Shown: piece by piece, positions 35,154 through 40,853 of the stretch | Numbering within the stretch: position 1 is the first letter of the stretch | Layout of the letters: the number at the start of each line of letters is the position of its first letter | NCBI GenBank assembly: GCA_024710585.1 | Contig: JANJUM010000130.1 | Span: 1 to 54,660 of the forward strand | From: Desulforhopalus sp. | GTDB lineage: Bacteria > Desulfobacterota > Desulfobulbia > Desulfobulbales > Desulfocapsaceae | Direction: 5' to 3' | Length of the DNA stretch: 54,660 nucleotides | Notes under the pieces: generated by a model | Database searches by the model: none | Told to the model about the DNA's origin: nothing | Seen by the model: the letters and a program-made list of their open reading frames with translations, nothing else | Program-made: the position numbers and the translations under genes

Positions 35154-36029
35154 GTGCCTGTGAGCGTTTTTCCGCGCCTCACCGCACTTTTGGCGGCGCT
35201 GGCGCTGGTGCTAGCCCTGAGCATGACCCCTGCCGCCAGCGAAGACCGCGGCGGGGGCCTGCTCGAGGCCACCAAGGGCCTCCTGCAGTCTTCCGGCCAG
35301 GACGATGCTTCTTCCTGGGTGGTGGAAAAGATTGGCGAGTATCTGCCCCTGGACATGGAGTTCGTCGACGAGGAGGGACAGCGGGTGCGACTCGATGAAC
35401 TCATCGACCGCCCGACGCTGTTTCTGCCCATCTACTACTACTGCCCCAACATCTGCAGCAAGAACCTCGCCAACCTCGCCGTGGCCCTCGGCGGCCTCAG
35501 CGCCCTGCCGGGCATCGACTACCAGGTTGTCGCCCTGAGCTTCAACGATGTCGAGGGCCCCAAGGATGCCGCCGCCGCCAAGAACAACTACGTCAAGATC
35601 CTCCCCGAGGGCTGGCCGCACAAGGAGTGGCGCTTTCTCACCGGCGATGCCGGGGCCATCAAGAGAGCCACCGATGGGGTCGGCTTTCGCTTCGAGAAGG
35701 TCGACGACGAGACCTTCATCCACCCTGCGGCGCTCATTGTCCTTGCCGGGGACGGCAAGATCATTCGCTATGTCTACGGCAGCTTCCTCGCCGGCGACAT
35801 CGATCTGGCTCTCGCCGCGGCTGCCGCAGGCACACCGATGATGTCGGTCAAGCGCCTGCTCGGCTTCTGTTTCAACTACGACCCCCACGGCGGTGGCACC
35901 TCGATCTTCGAAATGGTGAAAATCATCGTTCTAGCGGTTTTCGCCGTGGCGCTCGGGGCGGTTTTTCTCTACTATAGGCGCAGAGGGCGGTCAGCACGGG
36001 CTGCCGCCGATGGCAACGAACAGTCCTGA
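35154..36029 (+). CDS. SCO1/SenC-family copper chaperone
   Basis: A 291-residue membrane-anchored protein with a signal-like N-terminus (about 1-28), a thioredoxin-fold SCO domain and a C-terminal membrane helix near 255-277. The copper ligands are C97 and C101 in C-P-N-I-C and the His in F-I-H-P-A-A. SCO proteins load the CuA site of oxidase subunit II. The GTG start at 35154 is 3 bases after the DOMON stop; GTG 35160 is an alternative. It directly precedes the oxidase genes. Confidence 0.92.
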   Translation: MPVSVFPRLTALLAALALVLALSMTPAASEDRGGGLLEATKGLLQSSGQDDASSWVVEKIGEYLPLDMEFVDEEGQRVRLDELIDRPTLFLPIYYYCPNICSKNLANLAVALGGLSALPGIDYQVVALSFNDVEGPKDAAAAKNNYVKILPEGWPHKEWRFLTGDAGAIKRATDGVGFRFEKVDDETFIHPAALIVLAGDGKIIRYVYGSFLAGDIDLALAAAAAGTPMMSVKRLLGFCFNYDPHGGGTSIFEMVKIIVLAVFAVALGAVFLYYRRRGRSARAAADGNEQS

Positions 36030-36041
36030 CGGGATATCTCC

Positions 36042-37673
36042 ATGACCGCGATACCATCCTTCTTTACGCAATCGTCACCCCCCGGCCTGACCGGCATCAA
36101 GGCCTGGCTGCTGACCCACGACCACAAGCGCCTCGGCCTGATGTACCTCTACGCGGTCCTCTTCTGGTTCGTCGTCGCCATGGTCATCGGCCTGCTCATC
36201 CGCACCGAGCTGATGAGCCAGGGGCGCACCATCATGGGGCCGGGGATGTACAACTCCCTGTTCACCCTGCATGGGGTGATCATGATCTTTCTCTTCGTCA
36301 TCCCTGCCATCCCGGCCATCTTCGGCAATTTTTTCCTGCCCATCCAGCTGGGTACCGACGATGTATTCTTCCCCCGGCTCAACCTCTTCAGCTGGTACCT
36401 GTTCATGTTCGGCGGCATCTTCGCCCTGGTGGCCCTGTTCACCGGCGACGGCTTCCCCGACACCGGCTGGACTTTCTACGTGCCCTTCAGCGTACAGAGC
36501 AGCTCCAATGTCGGGCTTACCGTCTCCGCCGCTTTCATCCTCGGCATGTCGTCGATGCTCACCGGGCTCAACTTCGTCACCACCTTCCACCGCATGCGCG
36601 ACAAGCGCATGGGGCTGATGCAGATCCCGCTGTTCACCTGGTCGCTGTACGCCACCGCCTGGGTGCAGATCCTCGCCACACCGGTGATTTCCATCACCTT
36701 CGTACTGGTGGTCATGGAGCGGTTGCTCTCCATCGGCCTCTTCGACCCAGCCAGAGGTGGCGACCCCATCCTCTACCAGCATCTCTTCTGGATGTACTCC
36801 CATCCAGCGGTGTATATCATGATCCTCCCCGGCATGGGAGTGGTCTCGGAGATCATCCCGGTCTTTTCGCGCAAGTCAATCTTCGGCTACAAGGCCATCG
36901 TCTGGTCGTCCATGGGCATCGCCATCGCCGGCTCGCTGGTGTGGGCGCACCACATGTACACCAGCGGCATGAGCGATGTCTCGGTGTTCGTCTTCTCGCT
37001 GCTCACCTTCCTCGTTGCCATCCCTTCGGCGGTCAAGGTCTTCTCCTGGGTGGCGACGATGTACAAGGGCTCCATAGAGATGACTCCACCGCTCCTGCTT
37101 TCGCTGATCTTCATCTATTTGTTCAGCGTCGGCGGCCTGACCGGGCTGGTGCTCGGGGCAGTGGGCACCGATATCCACGTCCATGACACGCACTTCGTCG
37201 TCGCGCATTTTCACTTCGTCATGTTCGGCGGCACCGGCTTCGCCTTCCTTGCCGCCTTGCACTACTGGTGGCCGAAGATGTTCGGCATCATGTACCCCTT
37301 CCGACCCGCCTACATCGGGGCGGTGCTGACTGCGGTGGGGTTTCTCTTCCACTATGTGCCGATGCTGATTCTCGGCCTGCAGGGCATGCCGCGCCGCTAC
37401 TACGACTACCTGCCCCAGTACGAGACCGGCAACTTCCTCGCCGGGTTTGGAGGCTATCTGTTGTGTATCGGCCTGGTGGTAATGTTCGTCAATCTCCTCG
37501 CCAGCCTGCGCCACCGCGTCGCCGCCCCCGCCGACCCCTGGGGGGCGACCACCCTGGAGTGGCGGGTTCCCTCGCCACCGCCGGTGCACAATTTCGTCGA
37601 CAAACCGGAAATCATGGATTTTCCTTACGATTTCCGTCAGGTCGGAGATAACTCGGCCAGCCAGCGCTCCTAG
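36042..37673 (+). CDS. ctaD: Heme-copper oxidase subunit I, A2 type
   Basis: A 543-residue polytopic protein, the catalytic subunit of an oxygen-reducing proton pump. Low-spin heme His in T-L-H-G-V; CuB His in S-H-P-A-V-Y with the cross-linked Tyr; the H-H pair in W-A-H-H-M; heme a/a3 His in H-F-V-V-A-H-F-H. The helix VI motif is Y-S-H-P-A-V-Y rather than G-H-P-E-V-Y, marking type A2, where Tyr-Ser replaces the channel Glu. It starts 12 bases after the SCO gene and heads subunits III, IV and II. Confidence 0.96.
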   Translation: MTAIPSFFTQSSPPGLTGIKAWLLTHDHKRLGLMYLYAVLFWFVVAMVIGLLIRTELMSQGRTIMGPGMYNSLFTLHGVIMIFLFVIPAIPAIFGNFFLPIQLGTDDVFFPRLNLFSWYLFMFGGIFALVALFTGDGFPDTGWTFYVPFSVQSSSNVGLTVSAAFILGMSSMLTGLNFVTTFHRMRDKRMGLMQIPLFTWSLYATAWVQILATPVISITFVLVVMERLLSIGLFDPARGGDPILYQHLFWMYSHPAVYIMILPGMGVVSEIIPVFSRKSIFGYKAIVWSSMGIAIAGSLVWAHHMYTSGMSDVSVFVFSLLTFLVAIPSAVKVFSWVATMYKGSIEMTPPLLLSLIFIYLFSVGGLTGLVLGAVGTDIHVHDTHFVVAHFHFVMFGGTGFAFLAALHYWWPKMFGIMYPFRPAYIGAVLTAVGFLFHYVPMLILGLQGMPRRYYDYLPQYETGNFLAGFGGYLLCIGLVVMFVNLLASLRHRVAAPADPWGATTLEWRVPSPPPVHNFVDKPEIMDFPYDFRQVGDNSASQRS

Positions 37674-37682
37674 GGGGATGCC

Positions 37683-38279
37683 ATGCACCGCGAAAGTGAC
37701 CAGGTAGGCATCAAGATCGGCATGTGGCTGTTTCTCTATTCGGAGATCATCCTCTTCGGGGGGCTGTTCGTCCTCTATGCCGCCTATTTTTTCGAGCACC
37801 CGCAGTCCTTTGTCGCAGGCGGCAAGGAACTCAACCGCATCATCGGCGCCCTGAACACCATCGTGCTGCTGGTGTCGAGTTTCACCGTCGCCGCCTCGAT
37901 CACCGCCATCAGGCGGGACGATGCGAAGAGGGCGCAGCGGCTGCTGCTCTTTTCCCTGCTGTGCGGGGTGGTCTTTCTCGTCAACAAGTACTTCGAGTGG
38001 GGGGCGAAGATCGACCACGGCATCTATCCCAATTCCGAGACCCTGGTCAACGGGGAGCCGGGGCTGAACATCTTCTTCGGCCTCTACTATGTCATCACCG
38101 GCCTGCATGGCCTGCACGTCATCATCGGCATGGCGCTTCTCGCGGTGAGCCTGTTCTTCATCCGCAGCGGCCGGGTCAGCGGCAGCCGCTATGCGATGCT
38201 CGACAATGCCGGGCTCTACTGGCATCTCGTCGATCTCATCTGGATCTTCGTCTTTCCCCTGTTTTACCTCGTCCTCTAG
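37683..38279 (+). CDS. ctaE: Cytochrome c oxidase subunit III
   Basis: A 198-residue membrane protein with five hydrophobic segments, the short bacterial form. The Y-S-E-I-I-L-F-G helix and the F-G-L-Y-Y-V-I-T-G-L-H-G-L-H-V block with its Glu/His residues are family features. It stabilises subunit I and its proton uptake. It begins 9 bases after subunit I. Confidence 0.94.
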   Translation: MHRESDQVGIKIGMWLFLYSEIILFGGLFVLYAAYFFEHPQSFVAGGKELNRIIGALNTIVLLVSSFTVAASITAIRRDDAKRAQRLLLFSLLCGVVFLVNKYFEWGAKIDHGIYPNSETLVNGEPGLNIFFGLYYVITGLHGLHVIIGMALLAVSLFFIRSGRVSGSRYAMLDNAGLYWHLVDLIWIFVFPLFYLVL

Positions 38280-38309
38280 GGGGACGAGCCATTATCGCGG
38301 AGAACCATC

Positions 38310-38597
38310 GTGGAACACGAGACCGTCCATCCCCCCATGAGCTATAAAGCGCTCGCAGCCGTGCTCGTCGCGCTGCTGCTGCTCACCGTGGTCACCGTCG
38401 CCGTCTCCTATGTCGACCTCGGCTTTTTCAACGTGCCGGTGGCCCTGGGGGTCGCCTGCCTCAAGGTGACCCTGGTGCTGCTGTTCTTCATGCACCTCAA
38501 GTACGAGGGGCCGATCATCGTCTTCTCGTTCATCGGCACCGTGACCTTTCTCATCATCATGATCGGCTTCACCTTCTGGGACGTAGCCTTCAGATAA
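38310..38597 (+). CDS. Cytochrome c oxidase subunit IV family protein
   Basis: A 95-residue membrane protein with three hydrophobic helices, matching the small prokaryotic subunit IV (CtaF/CyoD-like): A-C-L-K-V-T-L-V-L-L-F-F-M-H-L-K-Y is the recognisable block. It probably assists CuB assembly. The start is GTG 38310; the GGAGA before it supports it. It lies between subunits III and II. Confidence 0.9.
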   Translation: MEHETVHPPMSYKALAAVLVALLLLTVVTVAVSYVDLGFFNVPVALGVACLKVTLVLLFFMHLKYEGPIIVFSFIGTVTFLIIMIGFTFWDVAFR

Positions 38598-38612
38598 CTG
38601 GCGGAGAACACT

Positions 38613-39209
38613 ATGACCCCGGTACAGGGAGTGGATCTGGCATTCTGGTATATCCTGGGCATCTCCGTGGTGCTGCTCTTTGGCATCACCGCCGTCATGG
38701 TCTATTTCGTGGTGCGCTTCCGCCGCAGCAGGCATCCGGTGGCATCCGACATCCGCGACAACTACAAGCTGGAGATACTCTGGACGATCATTCCCACCCT
38801 CATCGCCCTGTCGATGTTCTATGTCGGCTGGCATTCCTACCTCGGCCTGCGGGCGGTGCCCGACGACGCCATGAACGTCGCCGTCGAGGCGCAGATGTTC
38901 TCCTGGCTGTTCATCTATGAAAACGACAAGGAGAGCGAGAACGAGCTGGTGGTGCCTGTGGGCAGGGCGGTCAAGCTCAACGTCAGCTCGGTGGACGTGC
39001 TGCACAGCCTGTTCATCGCCGCTTTCCGCATCAAGGTCGATGCCATCAAAGGCATCCCCACCTATGCCTGGTTCTACGCCGACAAGGTCGGCGAGTATGA
39101 CATTCAGTGCACCGAGTATTGCGGGGTCAACCATTCGGCAATGGTCGCCAAGCTGCGTATCGTCCCGCAGGAGGAGTTCGAGGCATGGCTGGCCGAGGAC
39201 GGCAACTGA
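38613..39209 (+). CDS. ctaC: Cytochrome c oxidase subunit II
   Basis: A 198-residue protein with two N-terminal membrane helices (about 10-33 and 50-70) and a periplasmic cupredoxin domain. The binuclear CuA site is complete: His in V-L-H-S-L, then C166-x3-C170 with His174 and a Met (C-T-E-Y-C-G-V-N-H-S-A-M). There is no fused cytochrome c domain, so an external electron donor is needed. There is no recognisable lipobox signal. It overlaps ctaB by 25 bases. Confidence 0.95.
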   Translation: MTPVQGVDLAFWYILGISVVLLFGITAVMVYFVVRFRRSRHPVASDIRDNYKLEILWTIIPTLIALSMFYVGWHSYLGLRAVPDDAMNVAVEAQMFSWLFIYENDKESENELVVPVGRAVKLNVSSVDVLHSLFIAAFRIKVDAIKGIPTYAWFYADKVGEYDIQCTEYCGVNHSAMVAKLRIVPQEEFEAWLAEDGN

Positions 39210-40144
39210 CGAGGGCGCTGCTTCCTTGCCTGCGGTTGGCCAAGTTGCCGCTCTGCTTTCTTGTCGGCCTGTCGGCCTTGTTTGGCGCCATGGTTGCCGG
39301 AGGAACGCCCGGTAAGGAGACGATAGCCACCGTCTTCGGTGTTTTTCTCGCTGCCTGTGGCGCGGCAAGCCTCAATTCCCTGCAGGAAAAAGAACTCGAT
39401 GGCGCCATGCGCCGCACCCGGGAGCGGCCCTTGCCGCGAGGCGAGGTCAGTGCCCTCTTCGCCGGCGTGCAGGCCGGCCTTCTCCTCACCCTCGCCCTGG
39501 CACTGCTTTTAGCTGCAGGAACAGCGCCGACGACACTGCTCACCGCCACGGCGGTTTTGCTCTATAACGGGGTCTACACCCCCTTGAAGAGAACGACGTC
39601 CCTGGCCATCGTCCCCGGACTGCTTTCTGGCGCCCTGCCGGCCTATATCGGCTGGCTCGCCGGGGGCGGCGCGCCCCTGGCCTTTGCCGCCCTGCTGCTC
39701 TTCGCGCTGCTGGTCCTCTGGCAGGTTCCCCACGTTCACCTCATCCTGCTCGACAATAGCGAGGATTACCGCTGCGGCCAGCTGCCGACACTGTTGACCT
39801 GCCTGACCGCGCCAGGCCTGCACCGCCTGCTCCTGCCCTGGGTGGGGGGCCTGGTCTGCCTGATGATGATGTTCGCTGTCCTTCCTCTGGCCATGCCGAT
39901 CGCGTATCGCATCGCCATAGTGGCCAACGCCGTGCTGTTGCCGCTGGTCCTGCTGCCGCTGGCCGCCAGGGCGGCGCGGGAGGGAGGCTATCGCAGTCTC
40001 TTTCTTGTCCTCAATCTCTTTATTCTGCTGCACATGGGAGTGGTGGCGGCGGGGCGGGTAGCCGCGACGCCGCAGGCGGGGACAGCAATCTCGACAATGG
40101 AGGAAAGCATGGAAATCGACTGGGCCTATCTGCGCAAGAACTGA
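39185..40144 (+). CDS. ctaB: Protoheme IX farnesyltransferase-like UbiA prenyltransferase
   Basis: A 319-residue polytopic UbiA-family enzyme, probably making heme O for the oxidase. It has a divergent first motif (N-S-L-Q-E-K-E-L-D-G-A-M-R-R-T-R-E-R-P-L-P), then Y-T-P-L-K-R-T-T and W-Q-V-P-H-V-H. ATG 39185 overlaps subunit II by 25 bases behind AGGAGG. The last helix ends near V-V-A-A-G-R. There is no ordinary stop: the frame runs through the ATG of the next gene and ends only at TGA 40142-40144, which is also a candidate selenocysteine codon. Confidence 0.88.
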   Translation: MAGRGRQLTRALLPCLRLAKLPLCFLVGLSALFGAMVAGGTPGKETIATVFGVFLAACGAASLNSLQEKELDGAMRRTRERPLPRGEVSALFAGVQAGLLLTLALALLLAAGTAPTTLLTATAVLLYNGVYTPLKRTTSLAIVPGLLSGALPAYIGWLAGGGAPLAFAALLLFALLVLWQVPHVHLILLDNSEDYRCGQLPTLLTCLTAPGLHRLLLPWVGGLVCLMMMFAVLPLAMPIAYRIAIVANAVLLPLVLLPLAARAAREGGYRSLFLVLNLFILLHMGVVAAGRVAATPQAGTAISTMEESMEIDWAYLRKN

Positions 40145-40447
40145 GTGTCCTGCAACAACGCACGGGCTGCGTTGGGCGCCGGGCAGTGGCTCATCAAAGA
40201 GGAGGTCGACGCCAGGAAGACGGCCATCGACGCCGAGGAGGCCTGGCAGCTGCTGGCCGCAGCAGACCTGGTGGTGGCGGCGGCAGGGAAGAAGGTCCTT
40301 CGCCTCGTCCCCAAGGATATCGCCCGCGACGAGTTGCTGGCAAAGGTCATCGGCCCTTCCGGCAAACTCCGCGCGCCGACTCTGCGCATTGGCAGGACGT
40401 ACTACGTCGGCTTTCATCCCCAGGTCTATGGGGAGCTCAAGGCCTAA
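40109..40447 (+). CDS. Candidate selenoprotein, ArsC/glutaredoxin-like (UxxC)
   Basis: A predicted 112-residue thioredoxin-fold protein if TGA at 40142-40144 is read as selenocysteine: M-E-I-D-W-A-Y-L-R-K-N-U-V-S-C, a U12-x-x-C15 redox motif. The downstream part follows the ArsC-like family to the L-R-A-P-T-L-R-I-G ... V-G-F block. ATG 40109 has GGAGG at 40099-40103, five bases away, inside the ctaB frame. A SECIS-like hairpin follows the TGA. Without recoding the part after TGA has no good start, GTG 40145 being merely the next codon. Function is unknown; placement after the oxidase genes suggests a redox or assembly role. The call is inference from sequence. Confidence 0.72.
40156..40174 (+). 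promoter_or_regulatory. Candidate bacterial SECIS hairpin
   Basis: A perfect 7-bp stem CAACGCA / TGCGTTG with the loop CGGGC. Counting the T of TGA as 1, the loop spans positions 22-26; in E. coli fdhF the GGUC loop spans 22-25. G residues in the apical loop and this spacing fit SelB recognition. Confidence 0.6.
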
Positions 40448-40453
40448 ACAGAA

Positions 40454-40484
40454 AAGGGGGGAAAGGTTTTATCCTCTCCCCCTT
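40454..40484. terminator. Hairpin after the candidate selenoprotein
   Basis: AAGGGGG (40454-40460) pairs with CCCCCTT (40478-40484), with AGG/CCT in the inner part. No T-run follows. Confidence 0.4.
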
Positions 40485-40540
40485 GATGATCGGGCCGATG
40501 TTCCGTGGCCGCCGATTCATTGCAGAGCTGAAACAAGACA

Positions 40541-40569
40541 GCGGAGGCGGCCCGGCAGGCCACCTCCGC
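40541..40569 (-). terminator. Terminator of the rubredoxin gene
   Basis: GCGGAGG-C-GGCC / GGCC-A-CCTCCGC with a 5-base loop; on the minus strand TGTCTTGTTT follows. It lies 36 bases after the rubredoxin stop. Confidence 0.6.
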
Positions 40570-40604
40570 TGCTGTACATCGTGATTGTTTAGCGCCCGGT
40601 CAGC

Positions 40605-40763
40605 TTACTCGGCTTTCCAGAACGCTTCCTTCTCCGCGCCGCACAGGGGGCAGACCCAGCTCTCCGGCACGTCTTCCCAGGCCGTTCCCGCCGCTACGCC
40701 GTGATCGGGGTCGCCTTCTGCCGGGTCATAAATATAGCCGCACGGACATTCCCATTTCTGCAT
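40605..40763 (-). CDS. Rubredoxin with a C-x-C first knuckle
   Basis: A 52-residue rubredoxin: [14 protein letters not shown], a middle [11 protein letters not shown], then [11 protein letters not shown]. The Fe(SCys)4 ligands would be C6, C8, C38, C41. The first knuckle is C-x-C-G, one residue shorter than C-x-x-C-G. It could donate electrons to the desulfoferrodoxin at 33.9 kb. GGAGAGAG precedes ATG. A weak promoter (TTGAGT-17-TAAGGT, plus-strand span 40829-40857) overlaps the end of the next gene. Confidence 0.9.
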
Positions 40764-40853
40764 GACTCTCTCCTTTTGCTGAAGTTACAGTGTTGCAATA
40801 GTTCTCATCACCTGACAAGAATACCTTCACCTTACCAAGAGCAGCACAAAAAC

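Follow-up and report, generated by a model that had tools for sequence, protein, structure and literature searches.

A very probable ArsC-related selenoprotein of Desulforhopalus sp., encoded across a conserved in-frame TGA at the end of an open ctaB frame

Positions 40109-40447 of the window, the 54,660-nucleotide stretch of a Desulforhopalus sp. draft genome that was analysed here, very probably hold a genuine selenoprotein gene of the NF041106 family, in which, judging from sequence comparison, the UGA at 40142-40144 would be decoded as selenocysteine (Sec) by SelB with Sec-tRNA, aided by a hairpin just downstream. The protein is not new in kind but an ordinary further member of a catalogued family. 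The window copy differs from that family in having Asn at residue 11, Lys at residue 86 and an upstream ctaB frame that is open into the Sec codon. The features concerned are these:

35154..39209, + strand: SCO1-like, COX1, COX3, COX4 and COX2 genes (named by Pfam), upstream of ctaB
39197..40144, + strand: frame of ctaB (heme o synthase-like, UbiA family); start tentative, the longest ORF running from GTG 39107
40099..40103, + strand: GGAGG Shine-Dalgarno sequence, 5 nt 5' of the ATG and within the open ctaB frame
40109..40447, + strand: ArsC-related selenoprotein gene (NF041106), predicted product of 112 residues with Sec at residue 12, stop TAA 40445-40447
40142..40144, + strand: predicted Sec codon TGA, first residue of U-V-S-C, TGA in 66 of 66 distinct homologues
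40156..40174, + strand: candidate bacterial SECIS hairpin, 7 bp with loop CGGGC, from a stem search; folding favoured family-wide, no better than chance for the window alone
40614..40760, - strand: rubredoxin (49 residues scanned; Pfam)

Translation from the ATG at 40109-40111 gives MEIDWAYLRKN up to the TGA, after which the same frame continues as VSCNNARAAL...LRAPTLR...VGF to the TAA. The original prediction, made from the letters of the DNA, that a single protein with U at position 12 spans the TGA is thus borne out, and the GGAGG that it placed ahead of the ATG is indeed there. With U written as C, the protein matches the NCBIfam model NF041106 (ArsC_rel_Se_1, 'ArsC family (seleno)protein') over its whole length at 111.6 bits, against a cut-off of 85, and at 103.9 bits in the genome search. 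The model calls for UxxC with either an in-frame TGA or Cys in first place, and the window protein has TGA at codon 12 and Cys at 15. Because this curated model covers the family, the further statement that ordinary annotation would miss the gene is out of date. On the + strand of 39900-40800 a scan for promoters and terminators found none, and neither an Rfam scan of the window nor a PADLOC search gave a match.

Among 57 genomes, those of the window and of its relatives, 39 have a match to NF041106 above the cut-off, as do 28 of 395 drawn from the phylum, a set that overlaps with the first; each copy contains a single TGA. Searching named genomes at the protein level gave nine loci, with the titles Desulfobulbaceae, Desulfuromonadaceae, Desulfobacteraceae, Desulfobulbus or Desulfogranum. 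The cultivated species Desulfobulbus elongatus (L059) and Desulfogranum mediterraneum (L058) are among those with the gene. Altogether 68 rows were collected, which come to 66 distinct genes once two duplicates (L072, identical to L058, and L081, identical to L060) are removed. A lone open frame across one TGA is no proof by itself, but a TGA at codon 12 in all 66 is far beyond chance. The segment ahead of the TGA also appears to be under constraint, since Tyr7 and Arg9 are identical in every member and Trp5 in 65. Residue 15 is Cys in 65 of the 66, locus L046 (genome G056) being the sole U-x-x-S among the U-x-x-C proteins. The window copy deviates at two conserved places: residue 11 is Gly in the 65 other members and Asn here only, and residue 86, Asn in 58 members, is here Lys. 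Identity to the window protein lies between 32 and 58% among the 51 sequences aligned with it, an alignment that, like the structure model below, was built from 52 of 59 genes. The aligned start codon is ATG in 59 of the 66; the other seven, whose positions are tentative, are ATA twice, GCG, TTG, AAA, AGG and AAG. A Shine-Dalgarno-like motif, loosely defined, precedes 62.

Homologues with Cys at position 12 had been proposed as a check, and none occurs among the 66 members, so that support for Sec comes from the constant TGA and not from Cys-containing relatives. Likewise, no Cys form scored above the NF041106 cut-off in the 57 genomes or in the 395 of the phylum. Eight matches below the cut-off were seen in the latter set, five of them with one TGA in the matched part and three without (G361, G090 and G335). 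One of the eight, in G168, begins at position 44, and its TGA lies elsewhere than at the Sec site. A distant Cys relative is possible in G335 or G090. Sixty-six distinct members with no Cys form among them suggest that selenium is important for the activity of the protein.

The gene upstream belongs to the UbiA family (PF01040, 114.8 against a cut-off of 34.2). Its best-matching family is heme o synthase (TIGR01473), at 144.5 bits and below the cut-off of 210.3, and ctaB is therefore used here as the closest available name. At least 18 of the 68 rows, the window included, have ctaB upstream, a lower bound because the loci from whole genomes hold only about 1.5 kb of upstream sequence. The arrangement in the window is unusual among them. 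Its ctaB frame, which is also that of the selenoprotein, continues without a stop as far as the Sec UGA, crossing the Shine-Dalgarno sequence and ATG of the selenoprotein gene, a point missed by the original prediction. The CtaB sequence is preserved as far as the conserved G-R of its C-terminus, which shows that the frame has not shifted within the conserved part, and a further 28 codons are then open to the TGA. As a consequence 1008 nt are open upstream of the ATG, against 360 nt for the next longest such stretch among the 68 rows. Each of the 17 remaining rows of this kind has a ctaB stop ahead of the selenoprotein, and in seven closely spaced pairs (L045, L032, L086, L040, L029, L026 and L088) that stop lies 28-53 nt from the selenoprotein start; for L086 a gap of 25 nt is listed, but a stop already closes the frame 46 nt ahead of the selenoprotein start.

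Translation of the selenoprotein in this genome most likely starts at its own ATG, within the last part of the ctaB frame, so that ribosomes on ctaB also meet the UGA. Provided that the assembly is correct, these would either stop there or insert Sec and yield a fusion. CtaB and the selenoprotein might then be made as one fused membrane protein, the UGA acting as a selenium-dependent switch that at low selenium gives a short form, CtaB plus tail. The unbroken frame and the intact CtaB are what such a product would need, yet the arrangement is seen in one of the 18 rows with ctaB upstream and the 17 others have a prior stop, the seven close pairs among them, while a good Shine-Dalgarno sequence and ATG stand immediately ahead of the selenoprotein. 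If the C-terminus lies outside the membrane, as would be expected for the heme o synthase family, a redox domain of cytoplasmic type would end up on the wrong side. The open junction is moreover found in one draft assembly and may be an assembly error. We consider the fusion unlikely. It is similarly unlikely that one Sec UGA serves two proteins, ending CtaB with a 28-residue tail when undecoded and giving the fusion when decoded, besides the free selenoprotein. If it did, selenium supply would determine which form is made of an enzyme in cytochrome oxidase assembly, and the junction may be a natural case of one UGA used as both stop and Sec codon; a limited literature search found no report of a ctaB fusion.

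As for the fold, the AlphaFold2 model of the selenoprotein, made from the alignment of 52, has a mean pLDDT of 94.2. Foldseek comparison with the PDB placed Spx best, followed by YffB, an ArsC-related protein, and NrdH-like glutaredoxins; TM-scores for the Spx and ArsC group are modest, about 0.5. Spx also ranks first with the family profile (E = 3.9e-5). The profile alignment with Spx (structures such as 1z3e, 3l78 and 6gho) pairs position 12 with the leading Cys of the Spx motif C-T-S-C-R-K-A, and L-R-A-P of the selenoprotein with L-R-R-P. Identity in the structural alignments is 17-19%, Spx having Cys where the selenoprotein has U12. The similarity is a remote one: the NCBIfam matches to the window protein up to E = 10 include no Spx model, and membership of that family is rejected on this ground. 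The original description of the product as a thioredoxin-type, ArsC- or glutaredoxin-like protein is thereby upheld, with profile, model and structural matches all supporting a fold of Spx/ArsC/glutaredoxin type.

The product would then be a small thioredoxin-fold protein of the Spx/ArsC type, whose first helix begins with the redox pair U12-x-x-C15 and which has a conserved L-R-A-P loop. Its most likely activity is that of a thiol/selenol-disulfide oxidoreductase, in which the selenolate would attack either a disulfide or an oxidised thiol, and C15 would then resolve the intermediate. This division of roles, selenolate as the attacking group and C15 as the resolving one, would follow from the established general chemistry of the fold.

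The name of the family raises the question of whether the protein is a true arsenate reductase that uses Sec. Beyond the name, this can draw on the fold that it has in common with the ArsC family (PF03960, TIGR00014) and on a weak, distant similarity to PF03960 in 27 of the 52 aligned members at E up to 0.1, the best being 0.001. A similarly weak resemblance to glutaredoxin is however commoner (34 of 52, best 9.7e-5), and the nearest solved structures are Spx. The window protein itself, which bears the UxxC motif, rises above no ArsC cut-off; indeed no Pfam model, PF03960 included, reached its gathering cut-off. No ars gene is found among the named neighbours, and a 2026 review (PMC13188914) lists UxxS, as against the UxxC seen here, for Sec-containing arsenate reductase. 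That arsenate reductase is the literal function is accordingly very improbable, and with no ArsC match in the window protein and glutaredoxin likeness the commoner we reject it.

The same review lists NF041106 as 'Arsenate reductase-like protein' with UxxC, citing PMC2398784, and the family has UxxC and a thioredoxin-like fold in common with the window protein. In the cited study, by Zhang and Gladyshev in 2008, the name is 'Arsenate reductase 2' (cd03032, UxxC; PMC2398784), and an arsenate reductase-like UxxC protein is also among those given in PMC9312934. Another paper lists an ArsC-like selenoprotein for Desulfotalea psychrophila and, for Desulfuromonas acetoxidans, a distant homologue of ArsC (PMC1794560); these likely belong to the same family as the window protein. 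In these papers the family is named only from resemblance.

Sec decoding calls for dedicated machinery, and the genes proposed for checking, selA, selB, selC and selD, are all present in the window's genome, a draft of 276 contigs that is 95.8% complete and 2.0% contaminated. There, selA scores 620.8 bits and selB 319.9 bits, the latter cut by a contig end off which its 587-residue ORF runs. ARAGORN finds a tRNA-Sec with anticodon TCA; a second tRNA-Sec match above the cut-off (47.1 bits) is actually a tRNA-Trp. Two selD genes score 371.4 and 358.4 bits, and in both a single TGA lies ten residues into the region matched (G-U-A-A-K). They are distinct genes of the one draft genome, at C173:17961 and C132:12886 (L019 and L020). 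Together with the constant TGA and the NF041106 match, the machinery supports Sec recoding at the TGA, and a call made correctly from sequence alone is so confirmed by comparison.

Across the 39 gene-bearing genomes a SelA match is present in 32, in 31 of them above the cut-off and in G022 below it. Of the seven without a match (G001, G002, G019, G021, G025, G027 and G029), four are less than 90% complete and three 94-97%. SelA is also present in 17 of the 18 relatives that lack the selenoprotein gene. That the TGA merely terminates ctaB, with the frame beyond it starting at GTG 40145 or being the remnant of a pseudogene, is extremely unlikely: although the TGA is the sole stop of the open ctaB frame, the copy has unusual residues at 11 and 86 and SelA is missed in those seven genomes, the retention of a single TGA at the same codon in every homologue, the conserved residues that precede it and the SelA matches in the 32 other genomes, the window's included, together speak against it, and both a plain stop and a plain pseudogene are rejected.

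Two of the SelA-less genomes, G027 and G019, are of the window's family and consist of single contigs. They contain the selenoprotein with its TGA (L039 and L051), a tRNA-Sec (TCA) and selB at 385 and 365 bits (L093, L094, L096 and L098 being the related loci). No SelA is above the cut-off in either, the best PF03841 matches having 11.4 and 19.4 bits against 22.8, and neither has a SepSecS match. Either these genomes miss a stretch or their Sec is made by an unrecognised enzyme. In G025, also SelA-less, neither selB nor tRNA-Sec was found above the cut-off. The selA match of 13 assemblies from the window's family starts on the + strand 195-557 bases from the first base of a contig (for example G007:C3:316, G006:C219:244, G030:C96:217 and G016:C170:195), as if the preceding sequence breaks assemblies. 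In G028 selA is preceded, at a distance of about 5 kb, by an LSU rRNA gene, perhaps the cause and perhaps not.

Returning to the predicted Sec codon, the hairpin in the window comprises CAACGCA (40156-40162), the loop CGGGC (40163-40167) and TGCGTTG (40168-40174). The perfect 7-bp stem originally described, with CGGGC at bases 22-26 counted from the U of the UGA, is therefore present; the folding check proposed with it gave a less favourable answer, the window's own fold being no better than chance against dinucleotide shuffles (z = -0.19) or synonymous recodings (z = -0.41). The energy test and stem search covered 59 of the 66 distinct genes. On average over these 59, folding of the 17-codon stretch that begins with the TGA is favoured by 2.94 +/- 0.36 kcal/mol over synonymous recodings of the same protein. 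With the same control seven other offsets along the gene gave values from +0.16 to -1.53, of which two (-1.45 and -1.53) are also about three standard errors below zero, making the contrast one of degree. Each of the 59 genes has a stem of four or more pairs close to the hairpin site, an uncontrolled count in which registers differ: 21 genes have the register of the window and 14, 12, 8 and 4 have others. Within the 21 sequences of the same register one stem pair varies as C-G, G-C, A-T, G-T and T-A, although, as these were grouped by pairing, the count of paired changes is biased towards structure.

The downstream neighbour of the selenoprotein gene in the window is the rubredoxin gene on the opposite strand. 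Neighbours were clustered for 59 loci, with at most 2.6 kb per side and often less, and the common ones were named by Pfam from one representative each. They include ferritin (nine loci), an AhpC-type peroxiredoxin (five) and a rhodanese-rubrerythrin protein (four), the remaining loci having different common neighbours. The neighbouring genes would suggest, less firmly than the oxidoreductase activity, a role in protection from oxygen or peroxide. The recurrent link with ctaB, along with the ferritin, peroxiredoxin and rubrerythrin-like genes of some loci, makes for a testable function.

A second Spx/ArsC-like protein, with TGA in U-T-T-C, was seen in another family of the same phylum (L084 in G361 and L085 in G121, two of the eight matches below the NF041106 cut-off). 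In both loci the TGA is directly before T-T-C, lying in L084 just beyond the match. L085 scores 39.3 bits against NF041106 (cut-off 85) and is closest to TIGR01617, Spx/MgsR, at 72.6 bits (cut-off 75.05); it is probably a further Sec form of the Spx/ArsC group.
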